Part shown: piece after piece, positions 21,079-30,599 of the stretch
Position numbering within the stretch: position 1 is the stretch's first letter
Layout of the letters: each line of letters starts with the position of its first letter
Assembly (NCBI GenBank): GCA_030540195.1
Contig: JAUNWT010000010.1
Location: forward strand, 1-44,136
Direction: 5' to 3'
Source of the DNA: Bacillota bacterium
GTDB lineage: Bacteria; Bacillota_I; Bacilli_A; Erysipelotrichales; Coprobacillaceae
DNA: 44,136 nucleotides
Made by a program: the position numbers and the translations under genes
Notes under the pieces: model-generated
Seen by the model: only the letters and a program-made list of their open reading frames with translations
Told to the model about the DNA's origin: nothing
Database searches by the model: none

Positions 21079-21100
21079 GTGTTTTCTTGTTTTGAAAGGC

Positions 21101-21129
21101 TTTACATTTTGTTTTACCGTAGATAGAAT
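21101..21129 (+). promoter_or_regulatory. Promoter for the PAS-GGDEF gene
   Basis: TTTACA (21101-21106) and TAGAAT (21124-21129) are exactly 17 bases apart. The predicted start of transcription near 21136 leaves a leader of only about ten bases holding GGTGA, which favours the ATG at 21146 as translation start. Confidence 0.6.
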
Positions 21130-21145
21130 AGTAATGGTGATAAAA

Positions 21146-22120
21146 ATGAAACTGGAAGAACTATTCACAGAGTTTTTAATGGATCCTTTCAAATTAATTG
21201 AATCAATTGTTCATGCTAAAGGATCTTCTGTTATTTTGTTTAAAAATAGAAAAAGTGAAATTATTTATGTAAATGAACAGTTTTACTATAAACATCCACA
21301 ATTTAAAGATTGTAAGGAATCAGTTTTTGGAAAAACAGATTTTGATTTATTTCCAAACTCACAAGAACATGCGAAGCAAGCATTTATTGACGAACAAAAT
21401 GTTATGATGACAGGACAAGCTATCAATGTCGTTGAAACAGAAGGTAAAACAGAGAAAGGTCATACCATTATTGCGCATACAAGAAAATATCCAGTACATA
21501 ATAAAGATGGAAATGTCATAGGGGTTTTTGTGATTACGGAAGATATGACAAATGATGTTGTTGCTTTAAGAGAAAATCAAGAAAAAGCAAAAATTCTTAA
21601 GAAATTAAATGTTGAGCTTTCTCAGGAAAATGCGATGGATGCTTTAACACAACTTTATAATCGAAGATTTATACATGCAGAATTAGATACGCTTCATAAA
21701 GAATATATAAAAAATAATACGCCATTTTCTATTTTGATTTTGGACTTAGATAATTTTAAAAGTGTAAATGATAATTATGGACATCATATCGGTAATGAAG
21801 TCATTAAACATGTTGGAAATGTTTTATTGAATATAAAACATCAAAAATATCCAACGATGGAACCGTGTCGATATGGAGGAGATGAATTTTTAGTTATATT
21901 ACCAGCATATCAAAAAGATGGTGCTGTTTCGATTGCAAGAGATATTAAAGATGCCTTTGATCATGTGGTTTTACATGCAGGTAATTATAATGATATTGTA
22001 AGATTAAGTATTGGTGTTGGTGGGATTCGGGACGAAGAAAGTGTACAAGATTTGTTGGATAAGTGCGACCAACGAATGTATATTTCTAAAAGAAATGGAA
22101 AAAATCGAATTACTTATTAG
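21146..22120 (+). CDS. PAS-GGDEF diguanylate cyclase
   Basis: This 324-residue protein should make cyclic di-GMP from two GTP. A PAS domain (about residues 20-137, with VNEQFYYKHPQF and FDLFPNS) is linked through a short helix to a GGDEF domain (about 160-324). The active-site GGDEF is intact at 244-248, and LDLDNFKSVNDNYGH is present. No RxxD inhibitory site lies five residues before GGDEF. No membrane helices are seen, so it is probably cytosolic; the PAS ligand is unknown. The start at 21146 was chosen over an ATG at 21134 because of GGTGA and the promoter position. Confidence 0.88.
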   Translation: MKLEELFTEFLMDPFKLIESIVHAKGSSVILFKNRKSEIIYVNEQFYYKHPQFKDCKESVFGKTDFDLFPNSQEHAKQAFIDEQNVMMTGQAINVVETEGKTEKGHTIIAHTRKYPVHNKDGNVIGVFVITEDMTNDVVALRENQEKAKILKKLNVELSQENAMDALTQLYNRRFIHAELDTLHKEYIKNNTPFSILILDLDNFKSVNDNYGHHIGNEVIKHVGNVLLNIKHQKYPTMEPCRYGGDEFLVILPAYQKDGAVSIARDIKDAFDHVVLHAGNYNDIVRLSIGVGGIRDEESVQDLLDKCDQRMYISKRNGKNRITY

Positions 22121-23496: not shown

Positions 23497-23748
23497 ATGT
23501 TAGAATTTAAATACGATACACAATTATTAATTGAAGGAAAAAATTTAAATGAAGATGAAATCAGTGCTTACTTTACAGAACACTTTAAAGGAGATTGTTT
23601 GCTTGCGGTAGGCGATGATGAACTTATTAAAATTCATTTTCATACTAATGAACCTTGGAAGGTTCTAGAATACTGTTCAACCCTTGGTGAAATCTATGAT
23701 ATTGTTATAGAAGATATGGATCGTCAATCAAGAGGTCTAAAAGGATAA
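23497..23748 (+). CDS. Stand-alone FakA/YloV middle-domain-like protein
   Basis: An 83-residue protein whose sequence resembles the part of FakA (YloV, the fatty-acid kinase ATP-binding subunit) that follows the DhaL kinase domain: FKYDTQLLIEGKNLNEDEI, then DCLLAVGDDELIKIHFHTNEPWKVLEYC and GEIYDIVIEDMDRQ. The conserved His-x-His-Thr-Asn segment is kept. Without the kinase domain it cannot phosphorylate on its own. Database entries called 'kinase to dihydroxyacetone kinase' are probably this family. Its role is unknown; it is probably co-transcribed with the amidohydrolase. Confidence 0.7.
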   Translation: MLEFKYDTQLLIEGKNLNEDEISAYFTEHFKGDCLLAVGDDELIKIHFHTNEPWKVLEYCSTLGEIYDIVIEDMDRQSRGLKG

Positions 23749-23754
23749 AAACTA

Positions 23755-23783
23755 TTTTATATTAGATTAAAAAATGTTATAAT
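23755..23783 (+). promoter_or_regulatory. Promoter for the Wadjet operon
   Basis: TATAAT (23778-23783) preceded by TGT forms an extended -10; TTTTAT (23755-23760) at 17-base spacing is a weak -35. The -10 ends 109 bases before the jetA ATG, leaving a structured leader of roughly 100 bases. Confidence 0.6.
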
Positions 23784-23799
23784 TGCATAGCTGTTTATA

Positions 23800-23815
23800 A
23801 AATACATAAGTATTT
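23800..23815 (+). promoter_or_regulatory. Leader hairpin upstream of jetA
   Basis: AAATAC and GTATTT pair around ATAA early in the predicted jetA leader. On its own it is weak; its interest lies in its place before the terminator-like hairpin at 23835-23876. Confidence 0.4.
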
Positions 23816-23834
23816 CATAAAACGAAATTAAAGA

Positions 23835-23876
23835 AGAAAGAAATTGATAGAAATATCAAATAAACTTTCTTTTTTT
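23835..23876 (+). terminator. Terminator-like hairpin (putative attenuator) in the jetA leader
   Basis: An outer stem AGAAAG / CTTTCT encloses an inner stem TTGATA / TATCAA capped by a GAAA tetraloop, and the structure ends in seven Ts. It lies between the promoter at 23778 and the jetA ribosome binding site at about 23884, with no room for another promoter after it. It could therefore stop transcription before the operon, end a small RNA of roughly 85 bases, or simply be the end of the upstream operon with leaky read-through. Confidence 0.6.
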
Positions 23877-23892
23877 ATTGATGGGAGGAACT

Positions 23893-25245
23893 ATGGTTAA
23901 TATATTTGATACATTACCCGCAAAGTTTTTTAATATTTTTAATACGTCAGATCGTGTTGTTATTAGCGAGTGTATTGGTGTCCTTTATGACTATATTAAA
24001 GATGATGCTTCTTTTGCTTCGCTGAAAGAAAATCTTATTTATGAACTTACAAAATATTTTACCAATCATTTAATTGAACTCGAAGATGTTCAAATTCAAT
24101 CACCACGCGATAGAGCCTTTTATGTTTATCGACGCTTAAAAGAGTGTGGATGGATCAGTGAAGAAGTGGGAGAAAATTATCAAGTTTATACAAGTTTTGA
24201 AGACTATGCGATTAGTATTATTGAAACTTTAATGAATTTAGATGAAGATCGTGATATTGAATATTCAAGTATGGTTTATAGTATTTATTCGCAGTTTAAA
24301 AACTTTGATATTGAAAATGGACATAAAATTATTGATGCTCAATACAGCATGACAAAAAATTTAATGACAAAATTAAAGAATCTAAATACGAACATTAAAC
24401 GTTATATTAAGCGTTTAGTGAAAGATAATATGAAAAATGATTTAAATCAAATTCTAGATTCTTTATTAAGTGATTATCAGATGAAGATTGTTGATCGTGC
24501 ATTTTATAATTTAACGACAAAAGATCATCCTTTAAAATATAGAAACAGTATTATTTCTCAAATTCAAAAAATAATAGATGATTCTCAAACTACAGAAACA
24601 ATTATTGGTAATATGATGCTTTCTAAAGATATTTCTTATCAAGAAGCGAGTGATTTGTTTTATAGACAAACTTCGTATATTGTAGAAGCTTTTGAAAGTA
24701 TTCTTGATTTAATTAATGAAATCAATAGAAAAAATGAAAAGTTTGTTGCTTCAGCGACGAATCGTATTATGTTTTTAATGAACGCTAAAGAAGATATTGG
24801 TGGAAAAATCAATGACATTATTAAAGAAGGACAAAACTGCCCAGAAGTCTTTGAAAATGTAACGACACTTTCAGTTAATAAATATTTAGATCAACATTCT
24901 CTTTATTTACCAAGAACCATTAAAAAAGTAAAGAATGTGGATTTAATCATTGATGAACCTTTAGATGAAAAAGCGCGTTTAGAGGCCATTGAAAAATTAA
25001 AGCATAATGAAAAATATACAAAAACAGCAATTGAAAAAACTGTTTTAGAACAATTAAATGAAAAAGAATTCCTTTTAGGGTCTAATTACTTCGAAAGTCA
25101 AAAAGATTTATCGATGTTTATTTTAACGTGGCTTTACGGCTTTAGCCAAAATGCCCGTTATCGAATTGAACCGCAAGATCAAATTATTACAAAAGAACAT
25201 TATCAATTTAGAGAATTTACGATAAGGAGAGTTAAAGATGAATAA
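23893..25245 (+). CDS. jetA: Wadjet defence protein JetA (kleisin-like, type II, DUF5716)
   Basis: JetA is the MukF-like kleisin of Wadjet, an SMC-family complex that detects and destroys small circular DNA such as plasmids. The 450-residue product opens VNIFDTLPAKFFNIFNTSD and then has SPRDRAFYVYRRLKECGWI, which I associate with the DUF5716 JetA family; the middle (about 170-330) is mostly helical. Assignment rests on this and on the jetB-jetC-jetD neighbours. The ATG at 23893 follows GGGAGG; an ATG inside the leader structure was rejected. It overlaps jetB by eight bases. Confidence 0.82.
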   Translation: MVNIFDTLPAKFFNIFNTSDRVVISECIGVLYDYIKDDASFASLKENLIYELTKYFTNHLIELEDVQIQSPRDRAFYVYRRLKECGWISEEVGENYQVYTSFEDYAISIIETLMNLDEDRDIEYSSMVYSIYSQFKNFDIENGHKIIDAQYSMTKNLMTKLKNLNTNIKRYIKRLVKDNMKNDLNQILDSLLSDYQMKIVDRAFYNLTTKDHPLKYRNSIISQIQKIIDDSQTTETIIGNMMLSKDISYQEASDLFYRQTSYIVEAFESILDLINEINRKNEKFVASATNRIMFLMNAKEDIGGKINDIIKEGQNCPEVFENVTTLSVNKYLDQHSLYLPRTIKKVKNVDLIIDEPLDEKARLEAIEKLKHNEKYTKTAIEKTVLEQLNEKEFLLGSNYFESQKDLSMFILTWLYGFSQNARYRIEPQDQIITKEHYQFREFTIRRVKDE

Positions 25246-25876
25246 AAATGAATTGATGAAAAATCTGTCACAAGCGTATTTATTATTGTCTGAAAAAAAG
25301 AAAGATGAATTTTCACGTATTTTAAATCGTTTATTGGCAGTAAATTATTTATGTGGCGGTCGAAAAAGGGATCGAGAAGATTATTATTTTATAAGTGAAA
25401 ATGAACAATTATTTAAAGATTTTCTAATGATGTTGGATTATGATTTTCACTTATACAAAGCAGACCGTGTCATCTCTATTCGTAACCTTAATAACTATAA
25501 TCACTTAAATCTTAATCAAATGCAAACGATTGTTTTATTATTGCTTAGAAAACTCTATTTTCAAAAATCACAAGAGCTTCAAGATACGGAATTTATTCAT
25601 ATTACTTTAGGCGAACTTCATGGAGAAATAGAAGCAACAGGAATTTATAATGAACGTTTAAAGAAAACAGAGTTAAAAACGGTTTACCAATTTTTATCAC
25701 GTTACAATATTTGTGAACGTATTGGGGATTTAAATGAGGATGATTCACGTCTTATTATTTACCCAACAATCAATTATATTTTACCTGTTCAAAAAATAGA
25801 AGAAATCAATCAACGTATCCAACAATTTAAGAAAGGAGATCAATATGAAAACACTAACGAAAGTGAAACTGATTAA
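25238..25876 (+). CDS. jetB: Wadjet defence protein JetB (MukE-like, DUF4194)
   Basis: JetB is the MukE-like winged-helix subunit that bridges kleisin and SMC. The 212-residue product is a mixed helical protein with AVNYLCGGRKRDREDYYFI, a central LNQMQTIVLLLLRKLYF helix and TLGELHGEIEATGIY, consistent with DUF4194. It begins inside jetA (overlap eight bases) with AAGGAGAG upstream, and its last 32 bases overlap the start of jetC, so expression of the three subunits is coupled. Confidence 0.82.
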   Translation: MNKNELMKNLSQAYLLLSEKKKDEFSRILNRLLAVNYLCGGRKRDREDYYFISENEQLFKDFLMMLDYDFHLYKADRVISIRNLNNYNHLNLNQMQTIVLLLLRKLYFQKSQELQDTEFIHITLGELHGEIEATGIYNERLKKTELKTVYQFLSRYNICERIGDLNEDDSRLIIYPTINYILPVQKIEEINQRIQQFKKGDQYENTNESETD

Positions 25877-28800
25877 TTGGCATACTTTTTCAAATACTGA
25901 ATTTGAAATTTATAAAAATGCTTTAATTACAGGAGAAAATGGTACAGGGAAATCAACGATTCTCGATGCAATCCAATATGTACTTACAGTAGGAAAGTGT
26001 AAATTCAATAAAGCGGCAAGTGATATAGGGAATCGTACACTTGAGTCTTATATTCGTTGTAAAACAGGGATTGAAGGACATGAATATGTAAGAAATGGGG
26101 ATGTGACAACTTATATTGCTTTAGAATTTTTTGATGAAAAAACAAAGGATTATCAAATTATTGGAACTGTTATTGATTTACCATCTGGTGGACGTCTTAA
26201 TCGTGATTTTTTTCAAATTCTCGACTGTCAAATAAATGATGTTGTTTTTATTGAAGAAAGAAAAGTTTTAACAAAGAAAGAATTTAAAAATGCACTGACT
26301 AATAATAAACAACAAGGATTTTTTAAAGATACTATTAAAGAGGGAGAAAGGCTTTTTGGAAATGCTTTAGGTGTAAAACCTAAATATTTTGATTTAGTAA
26401 CAAGAGCACTTGCGTTTAAAGCCATTGATAATGTTTATCAATTCATTGTTGATTTTTTACTTAAAGAAGATTTTGTGGATATTCAAAATTTAAGAGATAG
26501 TATTAAACATTATAAAGTTCTTGAAGAAAAACTAAAAATATCTAAGAAAGAGTGTGATGCTTTGGAAGAAGTTGTAAAGCTTCACAACCGTTATTTAGAA
26601 AATGATTTCCAAATTGATATTCTTGATTGCACAAAAGAAAAACTCTATGAAAGAGAATTACGCTTTTTAATTGAAAATAGTCAAAAAAGATATCAAACAA
26701 TTGAAGATCAATTAAAATTCATTCAACAAAAACTCAATCAACTTCATCAAGATGAAGAAAGTTATCAAGAAAAATATCATCAACTCGATCAATCATTAAG
26801 AGAAAATGATACCTATAATTTGAAAAATGATTTAAAGAAGGAATGTGATCGTCTAAAAAAAGAAAAAGAGGATAAACATAAAGAATACCTTGGATTATTA
26901 GATGAACTTCAACAAGAAGCCAAACTTTTAAAAGAATTACATATACAAAAAGCATTTATTAAAGCCATTGAAAATGAAGAATATCAAACAGAAACACTTT
27001 CTACATATTTGCGAAAAGTCGAACAAGAAATTAAGGAAAGAACAAACAAGGCTAATCAACAACTTTCTTCATTGCAATTAACGATTACTCAAAATGTCAA
27101 CCAATATAATCAATATCAAGAAGAATATACTTCTTTGAAAGAAAATCAACTCTATTATCGTAAAGAAATCCAAGAATTGATTCATTTATTAAATGAACAA
27201 CTTACAAAACACTTTGGAAAAGAAATCGAAGTAAAACCATTATGCGAATACATCGAAGTCAAAGATGAAAAATGGCGTAATGCTTTAGAAGGTTATTTAA
27301 ATAGTCAAAGATTTGATTTAATTATTGAACCAGAATATTTTGAATATGCTCTTCTTGTTTATGAAGAATATAAAAATAAAAGAGGAATCTATGGCGTAGG
27401 GATTGTGGATGTTGCCAAACTTGCTAAATATGAAGATGTTGCTTTAAAGGAAACTTTGGCAAATCAATTAGAATGTAAAAATACATATGCAAGATGGTAT
27501 GTCAATATGTTACTTTCAAGAGTTCATTGTGTAGATGATGTCACACAACTAAGAAATTATCCAACAGCGATTACACCAACTTGTATGCTTTATAAAAACT
27601 ATACAGCAAGAGCACTCAATCCTCGTATTTACAATAAACCTTATATTGGTTTAGGGGCTATCAAGATTCAATTAAAGACAATTGAACAACAATTAGAAGT
27701 TTTACAACAAGAAATTAAACAACAAAAATTAGAACTTGAAACATTAAAAAATACACAATCTTTATTAAAAAAATCAAATGCCGATAAAATACTTTATCGT
27801 ATTGATCTTCTTGATAAATATCATAATCTTGAAAAAGAATATCAAGAAGTCAATGAGCGTTATCAAAAATTAGAACTTGATGATTCAATCATTTCTTTAC
27901 AAGAAGAATGTGATACGGTAAAGAAACAACTTGATCAAACAAAAAAAGAAAAAGAAAATGCTTTAATGAAAAAAGGAAGTCTTGAAAATAATCTTGAAAC
28001 ATTTAAAGAACAGCTTGAACAAACTCAAGAAAGCTATGATGTTTTACATGAAAAAATCATTCAATTTGAAATGGATCATTTAGAACTTTCACAAAAAGCA
28101 GATCAACAAGTTATTGATTATTTAAAACGCTTTGTAAAAGATTTTAAAGCGATGAAAAATGAAATTGATTATCAAAAATCAGTTTCTCAAAAGAAAGCTC
28201 GTCAAGTAGAATCACAAATTGAAATGAAGATGAAAGACTATAATGATGAATATAATATAGGCTTTGAAAATTCTTTAAAAGATAATGAAAGTTATAAACA
28301 AAGATATCATCAATTAAAAGATATGGATATTGTATCTAAAGAAGAAAAAACAAGACAAGCAAAATTAAAATGTGAAGAATCATTTAAAACTTCTTTTATT
28401 TCGGGATTAAATGAAAAAATTGAAAATGCGAAGAAAGATATTCATGAATTAAATAAAGGATTAGCACAAAGAGATTTCAATGGAGAAACTTACGAATTCT
28501 GTGTTTCACCAACTTCAAGAGATGATTTTAAAGAGTACTATAAGATCATTCAATCTGGTAAAGAATATATGGCAAATAATCTTTTATCAGAAACATTAAA
28601 TGAGAGTCAAAGAAGAATTATGGATGAGTTGTTTGTTAAACTTTCTTCAGTAGAAAATGATCAAGAAACAGAAAAGATGTTACTTGAATATACGGATTAT
28701 CGTAATTATTTAGATTATGATATAAAAATAAAATATGATAGTGGTGATTTTGCTTATTTTTCAAAAGTCAATAAAGAAAAATCAGGTGGAGAAACGCAAA

Positions 28801-29087
28801 CACCATTCTATGTAATTATGGCAGCAAGTTTTGAACAAGTTGTACGTAATCGAAATCAAAATGAAGGTTTTGGTTGTGTTGTTATTTTTGATGAAGCGTT
28901 TAATAACATGGATGAACAAAGAATACAAGAAATGATCAAGTTCTATAATGAACGTGAAATACAAACATTTATTGCAGTACCACCATCAAGAGCAAGTACA
29001 ATTATTCCTTATGTCAATACAAGATTACTTGTTATTAAACAAAATCAACATTCCTTTGTCGAAGGCTTTAGAGATGAAGAGTTATAG
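25845..29087 (+). CDS. jetC: Wadjet SMC-like ATPase JetC
   Basis: JetC is the MukB-like motor that extrudes DNA loops in Wadjet. The 1080-residue protein has Walker A GENGTGKST at 30-38, long glutamine- and lysine-rich coiled-coil arms (roughly 220-430 and 640-900) around a hinge-like globular region (about 440-610), the ABC signature SGGETQTPF at 980-988, and Walker B with D1016-E1017 in VVIFDEAFNNMD. All ATPase residues appear intact. GAAAGGAGAT precedes the ATG inside jetB. It overlaps jetD by 14 bases. Confidence 0.9.
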   Translation: MKTLTKVKLINWHTFSNTEFEIYKNALITGENGTGKSTILDAIQYVLTVGKCKFNKAASDIGNRTLESYIRCKTGIEGHEYVRNGDVTTYIALEFFDEKTKDYQIIGTVIDLPSGGRLNRDFFQILDCQINDVVFIEERKVLTKKEFKNALTNNKQQGFFKDTIKEGERLFGNALGVKPKYFDLVTRALAFKAIDNVYQFIVDFLLKEDFVDIQNLRDSIKHYKVLEEKLKISKKECDALEEVVKLHNRYLENDFQIDILDCTKEKLYERELRFLIENSQKRYQTIEDQLKFIQQKLNQLHQDEESYQEKYHQLDQSLRENDTYNLKNDLKKECDRLKKEKEDKHKEYLGLLDELQQEAKLLKELHIQKAFIKAIENEEYQTETLSTYLRKVEQEIKERTNKANQQLSSLQLTITQNVNQYNQYQEEYTSLKENQLYYRKEIQELIHLLNEQLTKHFGKEIEVKPLCEYIEVKDEKWRNALEGYLNSQRFDLIIEPEYFEYALLVYEEYKNKRGIYGVGIVDVAKLAKYEDVALKETLANQLECKNTYARWYVNMLLSRVHCVDDVTQLRNYPTAITPTCMLYKNYTARALNPRIYNKPYIGLGAIKIQLKTIEQQLEVLQQEIKQQKLELETLKNTQSLLKKSNADKILYRIDLLDKYHNLEKEYQEVNERYQKLELDDSIISLQEECDTVKKQLDQTKKEKENALMKKGSLENNLETFKEQLEQTQESYDVLHEKIIQFEMDHLELSQKADQQVIDYLKRFVKDFKAMKNEIDYQKSVSQKKARQVESQIEMKMKDYNDEYNIGFENSLKDNESYKQRYHQLKDMDIVSKEEKTRQAKLKCEESFKTSFISGLNEKIENAKKDIHELNKGLAQRDFNGETYEFCVSPTSRDDFKEYYKIIQSGKEYMANNLLSETLNESQRRIMDELFVKLSSVENDQETEKMLLEYTDYRNYLDYDIKIKYDSGDFAYFSKVNKEKSGGETQTPFYVIMAASFEQVVRNRNQNEGFGCVVIFDEAFNNMDEQRIQEMIKFYNEREIQTFIAVPPSRASTIIPYVNTRLLVIKQNQHSFVEGFRDEEL

Positions 29088-30288
29088 AAAAGAAATTTTA
29101 GAATATTTTATAAAAAGTTATGAAAATAGTGCCTATGGAAATGGCTTATCATCAAGTCCAAGAAGGATCACTTTTAATCTTAATAAAAAGTATCCAAATT
29201 ATGGTGGCAGTCGTTTTTATGAATTGACAGAGGAAATTGAAAAGGTTGTTTTTCAATTATACGAAGAGGGGTTTGTTGAATTTTCAAATAAGAGTATCTA
29301 TGGTAAAAGAGTGCTTGAATTTGTTAATAATGAAGAAAATATAGAAAAGATTTATCATGAGTTACAAAGAAAATCTTTAAAAGAGAAAAAAGAGAAATAT
29401 TTGTTGTATTTAGAAAAATATGATGATTCTTTCTTTACTGAATTTCAAAATGTTATAAAGAAAAAAGTTCAAAATAACAAGGGGTTATCACCTTATTTAA
29501 AAACAAACGATGTTGAAGATTTAGAAAATGTTATGAAAATACTGCAAGGAATGATAAATCAAGAAGAAGAGATTTCTTTTAGAAAGTTTTCTGAAAAAGT
29601 ATTAGGGGATACCAAAAAATTAGAAAAATATAAAAATAAAATTTATCATATTATTAAAGATTTTTATGATGATTCGATTGAAAACGTAGATGATGCCTTT
29701 GAACTATTCTATATACGTAAAAATCCTGCGTATGTTTATTTAAAAGGAAATGCTATTTTCCAAATAAATAATCAAGTTATTGATTTAAATGAAATGAATC
29801 ATTATTTTGTTTTACCAAGTATTTGTATCAAAGATTTGAAAATTAAGGATATTGAAGCAAAACAAGTAATGACTATTGAAAATTTAACATCTTTTCATGA
29901 TGTGTCTTTAAAAGATACTTTCTCTGTTTTTACAAATGGATTTCATAATCATGCTATAGAAGAATTTTTAAAATGTCTTTATGATTTTTTAGGAGAAAGA
30001 GTTTCTTATCTTCATTTTGGTGATATTGATGCAGGTGGTTTCCATATTTATGAATCCTTAATAAAGAAAACGAAAATTCCATTTCAAACATATAAAATGA
30101 ACGTTGATATGTTAAAGAAGTATAAAGCTTATACAAAACCTTTAACTGAAAATGATCGCAAGAGATTGCTTTTATTTGAAAAAAGGCACCAAGAAGTTAT
30201 TGGCTATATGTTAAAACATAATGTAAAATTAGAACAAGAGATCATAGGAGAAGAAGACGATGAAAGAAAAAACACTTACACGTATTAG
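29074..30288 (+). CDS. jetD: Wadjet nuclease JetD (DUF3322/DUF2220, Toprim)
   Basis: JetD is the topoisomerase VI-like nuclease that cleaves DNA held by JetABC. The 404-residue product has an N-terminal DUF3322-like helical region and a C-terminal DUF2220 Toprim domain. The Toprim acid residues are present: Glu269 in IENLTSF and the DxD pair Asp317/Asp319 in FGDIDAGGFHIYE. ATG at 29074 with GAAGG upstream gives a normal length; longer readings extend far into jetC. Its last 29 bases overlap a MazG-like gene. Confidence 0.87.
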   Translation: MKSYRKEILEYFIKSYENSAYGNGLSSSPRRITFNLNKKYPNYGGSRFYELTEEIEKVVFQLYEEGFVEFSNKSIYGKRVLEFVNNEENIEKIYHELQRKSLKEKKEKYLLYLEKYDDSFFTEFQNVIKKKVQNNKGLSPYLKTNDVEDLENVMKILQGMINQEEEISFRKFSEKVLGDTKKLEKYKNKIYHIIKDFYDDSIENVDDAFELFYIRKNPAYVYLKGNAIFQINNQVIDLNEMNHYFVLPSICIKDLKIKDIEAKQVMTIENLTSFHDVSLKDTFSVFTNGFHNHAIEEFLKCLYDFLGERVSYLHFGDIDAGGFHIYESLIKKTKIPFQTYKMNVDMLKKYKAYTKPLTENDRKRLLLFEKRHQEVIGYMLKHNVKLEQEIIGEEDDERKNTYTY

Positions 30289-30559
30289 AAAATTTACAGA
30301 GGATCGTAATTGGGATCAATTTCATTCGCCTGCAAATCTTGCAAAATCGATTTCTATTGAAGCAAGTGAACTTTTAGAATGTTTTCAATGGGATGAAGAA
30401 AACTTTGATTTACAGCATGTTAAAGAAGAGTTGGCAGATGTCATTATTTATAGTCAAGATTTGTTAGATAAATTAAACTTGGATGTTGATGAAATTGTGG
30501 ATATGAAAATGGCAATGAATGAAAAGAAATATCCTGTTGAAAAATGTAAAAGTAAATAA
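30260..30559 (+). CDS. MazG-like nucleotide pyrophosphohydrolase
   Basis: A 99-residue all-alpha NTP pyrophosphohydrolase of the MazG/dCTPase (RS21-C6) type, which hydrolyses (d)NTPs to monophosphates and pyrophosphate. The magnesium-binding acidic residues are visible as EASELLE (34-40) and EELADV (56-61) with FQW between, typical of the family. It starts inside jetD with AGGAG upstream, so it is part of the Wadjet transcript; it may be defence-linked nucleotide depletion or unrelated house-cleaning. Substrate preference cannot be told. Confidence 0.85.
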   Translation: MKEKTLTRIRKFTEDRNWDQFHSPANLAKSISIEASELLECFQWDEENFDLQHVKEELADVIIYSQDLLDKLNLDVDEIVDMKMAMNEKKYPVEKCKSK

Positions 30560-30572
30560 ATATGTGACAAAG

Positions 30573-30599
30573 AAAAACGGATGAAATTCCGTTTTTTTT
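30573..30599 (+). terminator. Intrinsic terminator of the Wadjet operon
   Basis: AAAAACGGA and TCCGTTTTT make a 9-bp stem around a six-base loop with further Ts. It marks the operon end after the MazG-like gene and before the next promoter. Confidence 0.87.

Follow-up and report, generated by a model that had tools for sequence, protein, structure and literature searches.

In front of the first gene of a Wadjet operon, a hairpin stands downstream of the promoter; does it control this operon, and does it act as a switch? We addressed this question for the jetABCD locus within a stretch of 44,136 nucleotides (the window) from a genome of the genus Faecalibacillus. By JetA identity, the nearest named relatives are F. 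faecis (91%) and F. intestinalis (84%); no JetA relatives were found in viral contigs. The locus had been labelled a type II Wadjet when it was read from the sequence alone. This label was wrong: JetA1, JetB1, JetC1 and JetD1 of type I were the best PADLOC models for the four genes, which form one operon (Table 1), and the type II models gave no match or a far weaker one. A MazG-like nucleotide pyrophosphatase ORF (30260-30559) overlaps the 3' end of jetD and probably belongs to the operon, with a terminator near 30592 marking the operon end.

Table 1. Features of the jet leader and its neighbouring genes in the window.
Feature	Position	Strand	Basis or remark
83-aa ORF, FakA-like middle domain only (PF21645)	23497..23748	+	last gene before the leader
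Promoter: weak -35 TTTATA, 16-nt spacer, extended -10 TG-T-TATAAT	23756..23783	+	sequence, conservation
Predicted leader transcript	23790..23892	+	start placed from the -10; about 87 nt to the end of the T-tract
Small 5' hairpin, core AAATAC-ATAA-GTATTT (23800-23815)	23794..23821	+	fold, stem kept in F. faecis
Terminator-like hairpin, two-tier with internal loop, then TTTTTTT	23830..23876	+	fold, score, F. faecis
jetA Shine-Dalgarno GGGAGG	23883..23888	+	sequence; predicted read-through fold
jetA, MukF-like	23893..25245	+	PF18982 2e-83; JetA1 7.9e-92; ATG at 23893
jetB, DUF4194, MukE-like	25238..25876	+	domain and PADLOC models
jetC, SMC ATPase	25845..29087	+	domain and PADLOC models
jetD, nuclease subunit	29074..30288	+	likely start 29074

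The sequence-only reading had described an extended -10 promoter at 23778, two hairpins, seven Ts and a Shine-Dalgarno (SD) sequence, and we found every one of these elements where it had placed them. The extended -10 consists of TG at 23775-23776 and TATAAT at 23778-23783. Across 601 kb of the source genome, TGNTATAAT had a 10-fold higher density in intergenic DNA than in coding DNA (0.32 versus 0.032 per kb). It typically lies 26-46 nt ahead of a start codon; ahead of jetA it lies at 118 nt. Three species have kept the promoter segment, namely that of the window, F. faecis and F. intestinalis. Around the promoter, about 34 of 36 bases in F. intestinalis are identical to the window, at a divergence of jetA fourfold sites of 50% (28.7% for F. 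faecis). Farther out in the family, L010 to L015 carry TGNTATAAT 36-39 nt before jetA, without the hairpin. Intergenic enrichment and conservation in relatives thus both support the promoter.

The predicted transcript is strongly structured. Positions 23790-23878 fold to -17.1 kcal/mol against a shuffle mean of -6.7 (z -4.7), and none of 200 shuffles was equally stable. The core of the small 5' hairpin contributes -2.5 kcal/mol, or about -4.9 with its outer pairs, and the terminator-like hairpin alone reaches -12.2 kcal/mol (z -3.9). In the latter, a lower purine/pyrimidine stem (GAAAG, 23836-23840; CTTTC, 23865-23869) carries an upper stem closed by a GAAA loop (TTGATA-GAAA-TATCAA, 23844-23859). 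Seven uninterrupted Ts follow the stem directly (23870-23876). The SD of jetA begins 7 nt after the end of the stem, and there is no space for a second promoter between hairpin and jetA. Most of the SD core stays unpaired when the read-through mRNA is folded in silico. The stem-loop has three exact 21-nt matches in viral contigs.

A stable hairpin directly followed by a U-tract is what defines an intrinsic terminator, and the leader hairpin has this form. Its terminator score was weak, albeit positive (4.9 on a Carafa-type scale devised for E. coli), and about 80% of the source genome's own terminators score higher. Because the stem is rich in A-U and contains few G-C pairs, a strict GC-based terminator scan missed the hairpin. 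In addition, the T-tract can pair with the upstream A-tract. Both properties may make termination less efficient, or may speak for a role that is structural only. Since the hairpin is weak, leakage is expected, and the earlier statement that transcripts should stop before jetA goes too far.

How unusual such an arrangement is was judged against 448 codirectional gene pairs in fragments totalling 601 kb of the same genome. A hairpin with a T-run at most 45 nt before the next start was present in 32 pairs, and 26 of these hairpins follow the upstream stop at a distance of about 35 nt or less, as ordinary gene-end terminators. Close to the start and far from the previous stop, such a hairpin occurs in 6 of the 448 pairs including the Wadjet leader. 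The other five leaders comprise two T-boxes, one FMN riboswitch, the leader of a YitT-family gene and that of a small ORF of no known function. As the characterised leaders of this layout are regulatory, the layout usually means leader regulation in this genome. The T-boxes score 17.8 and 33.3 and the YitT leader 25.8, compared to 4.9 for the Wadjet leader.

F. faecis retains the entire leader, with promoter, hairpins, T-tract and SD. Only 6 of the 103 aligned positions of the predicted transcript differ from the window (five substitutions and one single-base gap). All of them fall among the 47 unpaired and none among the 56 paired positions (Fisher P=0.0075), so that no position covaries between the two hairpin-bearing species and the pairing is a predicted one. 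In the terminator, all 34 paired positions are identical. At a fourfold divergence of 28.7%, the probability of 34 unchanged positions is near 1e-5, taking fourfold sites of this one genome pair as a rough neutral yardstick. F. intestinalis keeps the promoter and lacks the hairpin; its leader is short and unstructured (terminator score -66.6). There, a terminator, GATGCGAAAGCATCTTTTTT (score 17.2), lies ahead of the promoter and right behind the upstream FakA-like gene, whose own terminator is missing in the window and in F. faecis. By parsimony, the lineage of the window and F. faecis would have gained or retained the hairpin and lost the upstream terminator.

In a scan of 50 JetA loci, the order promoter, hairpin, T-tract, SD occurred in the window and F. 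faecis only. The 48 further loci include duplicates and a few truncated leaders; none of the roughly 45 other leaders had the four elements in that sequence. Two of them (L010 and L011) follow F. intestinalis, with the terminator first and then the promoter. In L096, L116 and L118, an inverted repeat with Ts upstream of jetA overlaps the -10 of the promoter. These hairpins near the SD were rejected as attenuators: their 5' arms overlap the -10 and are outside the transcript. The repeat could stop read-through from upstream, not transcripts of its own promoter. By the sequence-only reading, absence of the stem from related loci would count against an attenuator; the outcome was mixed, with the stem present in F. 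faecis and missing from F. intestinalis and the roughly 45 distant JetA leaders. Judged by these leaders, the Wadjet hairpin is specific to one lineage of two closely related gut bacteria.

We consider it about an even chance that the jetABCD leader of the window and F. faecis lineage contains a weak intrinsic terminator that serves as a leaky, non-switching attenuator and as an insulator. The extended -10 promoter would start a transcript near 23790. A fraction of the polymerases would halt in the T-tract and release an RNA of about 85 nt, and the remaining ones would read through to give a jet mRNA with an open SD. The same hairpin would block most read-through from the upstream M20-peptidase/FakA-like operon. 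Fixed and leaky, such an element would presumably hold Wadjet expression low and involve no switch. Of the attenuator-like leader proposed earlier, this retains a hairpin of terminator-like form that separates the conserved promoter from the SD, with paired positions kept in F. faecis, and drops the conditionality. With a leader terminator, the dose of an SMC-nuclease complex could be kept low by simple means. The three Faecalibacillus species offer a natural experiment, as they share the promoter and an orthologous operon with or without the hairpin.

Other explanations of the hairpin have to be weighed against this one. It may be the terminator of the upstream operon that moved past the jet promoter, with insulation as its role and attenuation as a side effect. 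No hairpin is found behind the stop of the 83-aa ORF in the window, where F. intestinalis has one, and the leader hairpin is the only terminator left between the upstream operon and jetA. A role as upstream terminator therefore probably applies too. Loss of the upstream terminator in both hairpin-bearing species fits this explanation, as does the frequency of terminators near the next start, most of them close behind a stop. However, 82 nt separate the leader hairpin from the upstream stop and the conserved promoter lies between them, so that the hairpin would act on jet transcripts whatever its own origin. Moreover, the 83-aa ORF is interrupted by an in-frame stop in F. intestinalis and carries a deletion in F. 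faecis, and hence looks like a decaying gene fragment. We find insulation as the sole role unlikely. Two genes upstream, a PAS-GGDEF gene is of full length in the window (21092-22120) and in F. intestinalis, and shortened in its 3' part in F. faecis (L002:3615-4304). A stem at the 5' end that terminates little and instead shields the jet mRNA or holds the SD open would agree with the weak terminator score, the short distance between stem and SD and the unpaired SD core. But seven Ts, needless in a stability stem, are kept in F. faecis, and F. intestinalis manages without any stem, which makes this explanation unlikely.

Could the leader be a conditional attenuator after all, in which Wadjet is turned on once an RNA-binding protein, an antitermination factor or a plasmid or phage product keeps the hairpin from forming? 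The order of promoter, terminator and SD would suit it, leaders of the same shape with known function in this genome are T-boxes and a riboswitch, and the small 5' hairpin is also retained in F. faecis. A conditional attenuator has a terminator between promoter and gene, as seen here, together with an antiterminator, a leader peptide or a ligand- or protein-binding element, which we did not find. Blocking either terminator arm in silico left the remainder of the fold the same and yielded no alternative pairing in either hairpin-bearing species. Between promoter and hairpin there is no ATG and no SD-preceded start for a leader peptide. A search against Rfam gave no match at gathering score in the whole window, and in the leader nothing beyond chance-level matches. 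With no alternative pairing, leader ORF or RNA family found, and with F. intestinalis and about 45 other JetA leaders lacking the hairpin, the conditional expression suggested earlier gained no support, and we regard such an attenuator as quite unlikely. Very improbable, in our estimate, is the more elaborate scenario in which the leader terminator holds Wadjet off until an antitermination activity of invader or host releases it, with read-through triggering the arming of the complex. Promoter and terminator would also delimit a regulatory small RNA, about 85 nt long and with its own targets. Yet it would be confined to two species, it has no Rfam match, and searches of genome and genus for another copy or a conserved seed outside the locus gave only low-complexity matches below the syntenic ones. 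We therefore hold this to be extremely improbable.

The leaky attenuator and insulator that we favour can be compared with leaders of known function. Like the T-box and riboswitch attenuators of the same genome (two T-boxes, FMN/ribU), the Wadjet leader has the order promoter, leader, terminator and SD; unlike them, it has neither aptamer nor antiterminator and measures only about 85 nt. The YitT-family leader, short as well at about 60 nt, shares the extended -10, a hairpin with seven Ts and an SD straight after, but its hairpin is stronger and it is conserved in five Faecalibacillus genomes. This unannotated leader of a membrane protein gene (L069:2200-2312, minus strand; G000:C16:42200-42312) combines the extended -10 with a conserved block (GCGTATTAAGCG...GCTTTGATCCACATTGTTAGGGAAAA), the strong terminator, the Ts and the SD. 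It is 76-98% identical to its relatives and has no Rfam match at gathering score. It is a better candidate than the Wadjet leader for a new conserved leader element.

The Wadjet literature that we inspected discusses mechanism and not leader control, and we found no account of attenuation in Wadjet in the open-access literature searched (subscription papers lay outside this search). Closer parallels come from other defence systems. In C. difficile RCd22-abiF, a terminator cuts read-through into the defence gene (PMC12373285). Both loci have a SigA-type promoter, a short RNA, an intrinsic terminator and the RBS of a defence gene, with no promoter in between (PMC12373285). However, RCd22 carries two abiF RNA motifs and binds AbiF as an antitoxin, whereas the Wadjet leader has no such motif, and reading its sequence revealed no repeat. 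The effectors differ as well, AbiF being of the abortive infection type and Wadjet an SMC-nuclease complex. An RNA and a terminator likewise stand before the effector in type III toxin-antitoxin operons (ToxIN, AbiQ, CptIN), and read-through sets the ratio (PMC12373285). In contrast to them, the Wadjet locus has neither tandem antitoxin repeats nor an endoribonuclease toxin; downstream lies jetA instead of an RNase or Abi_2 gene. In its anatomy, the Wadjet leader thus matches defence leaders that have already been described, RCd22-abiF and ToxIN.
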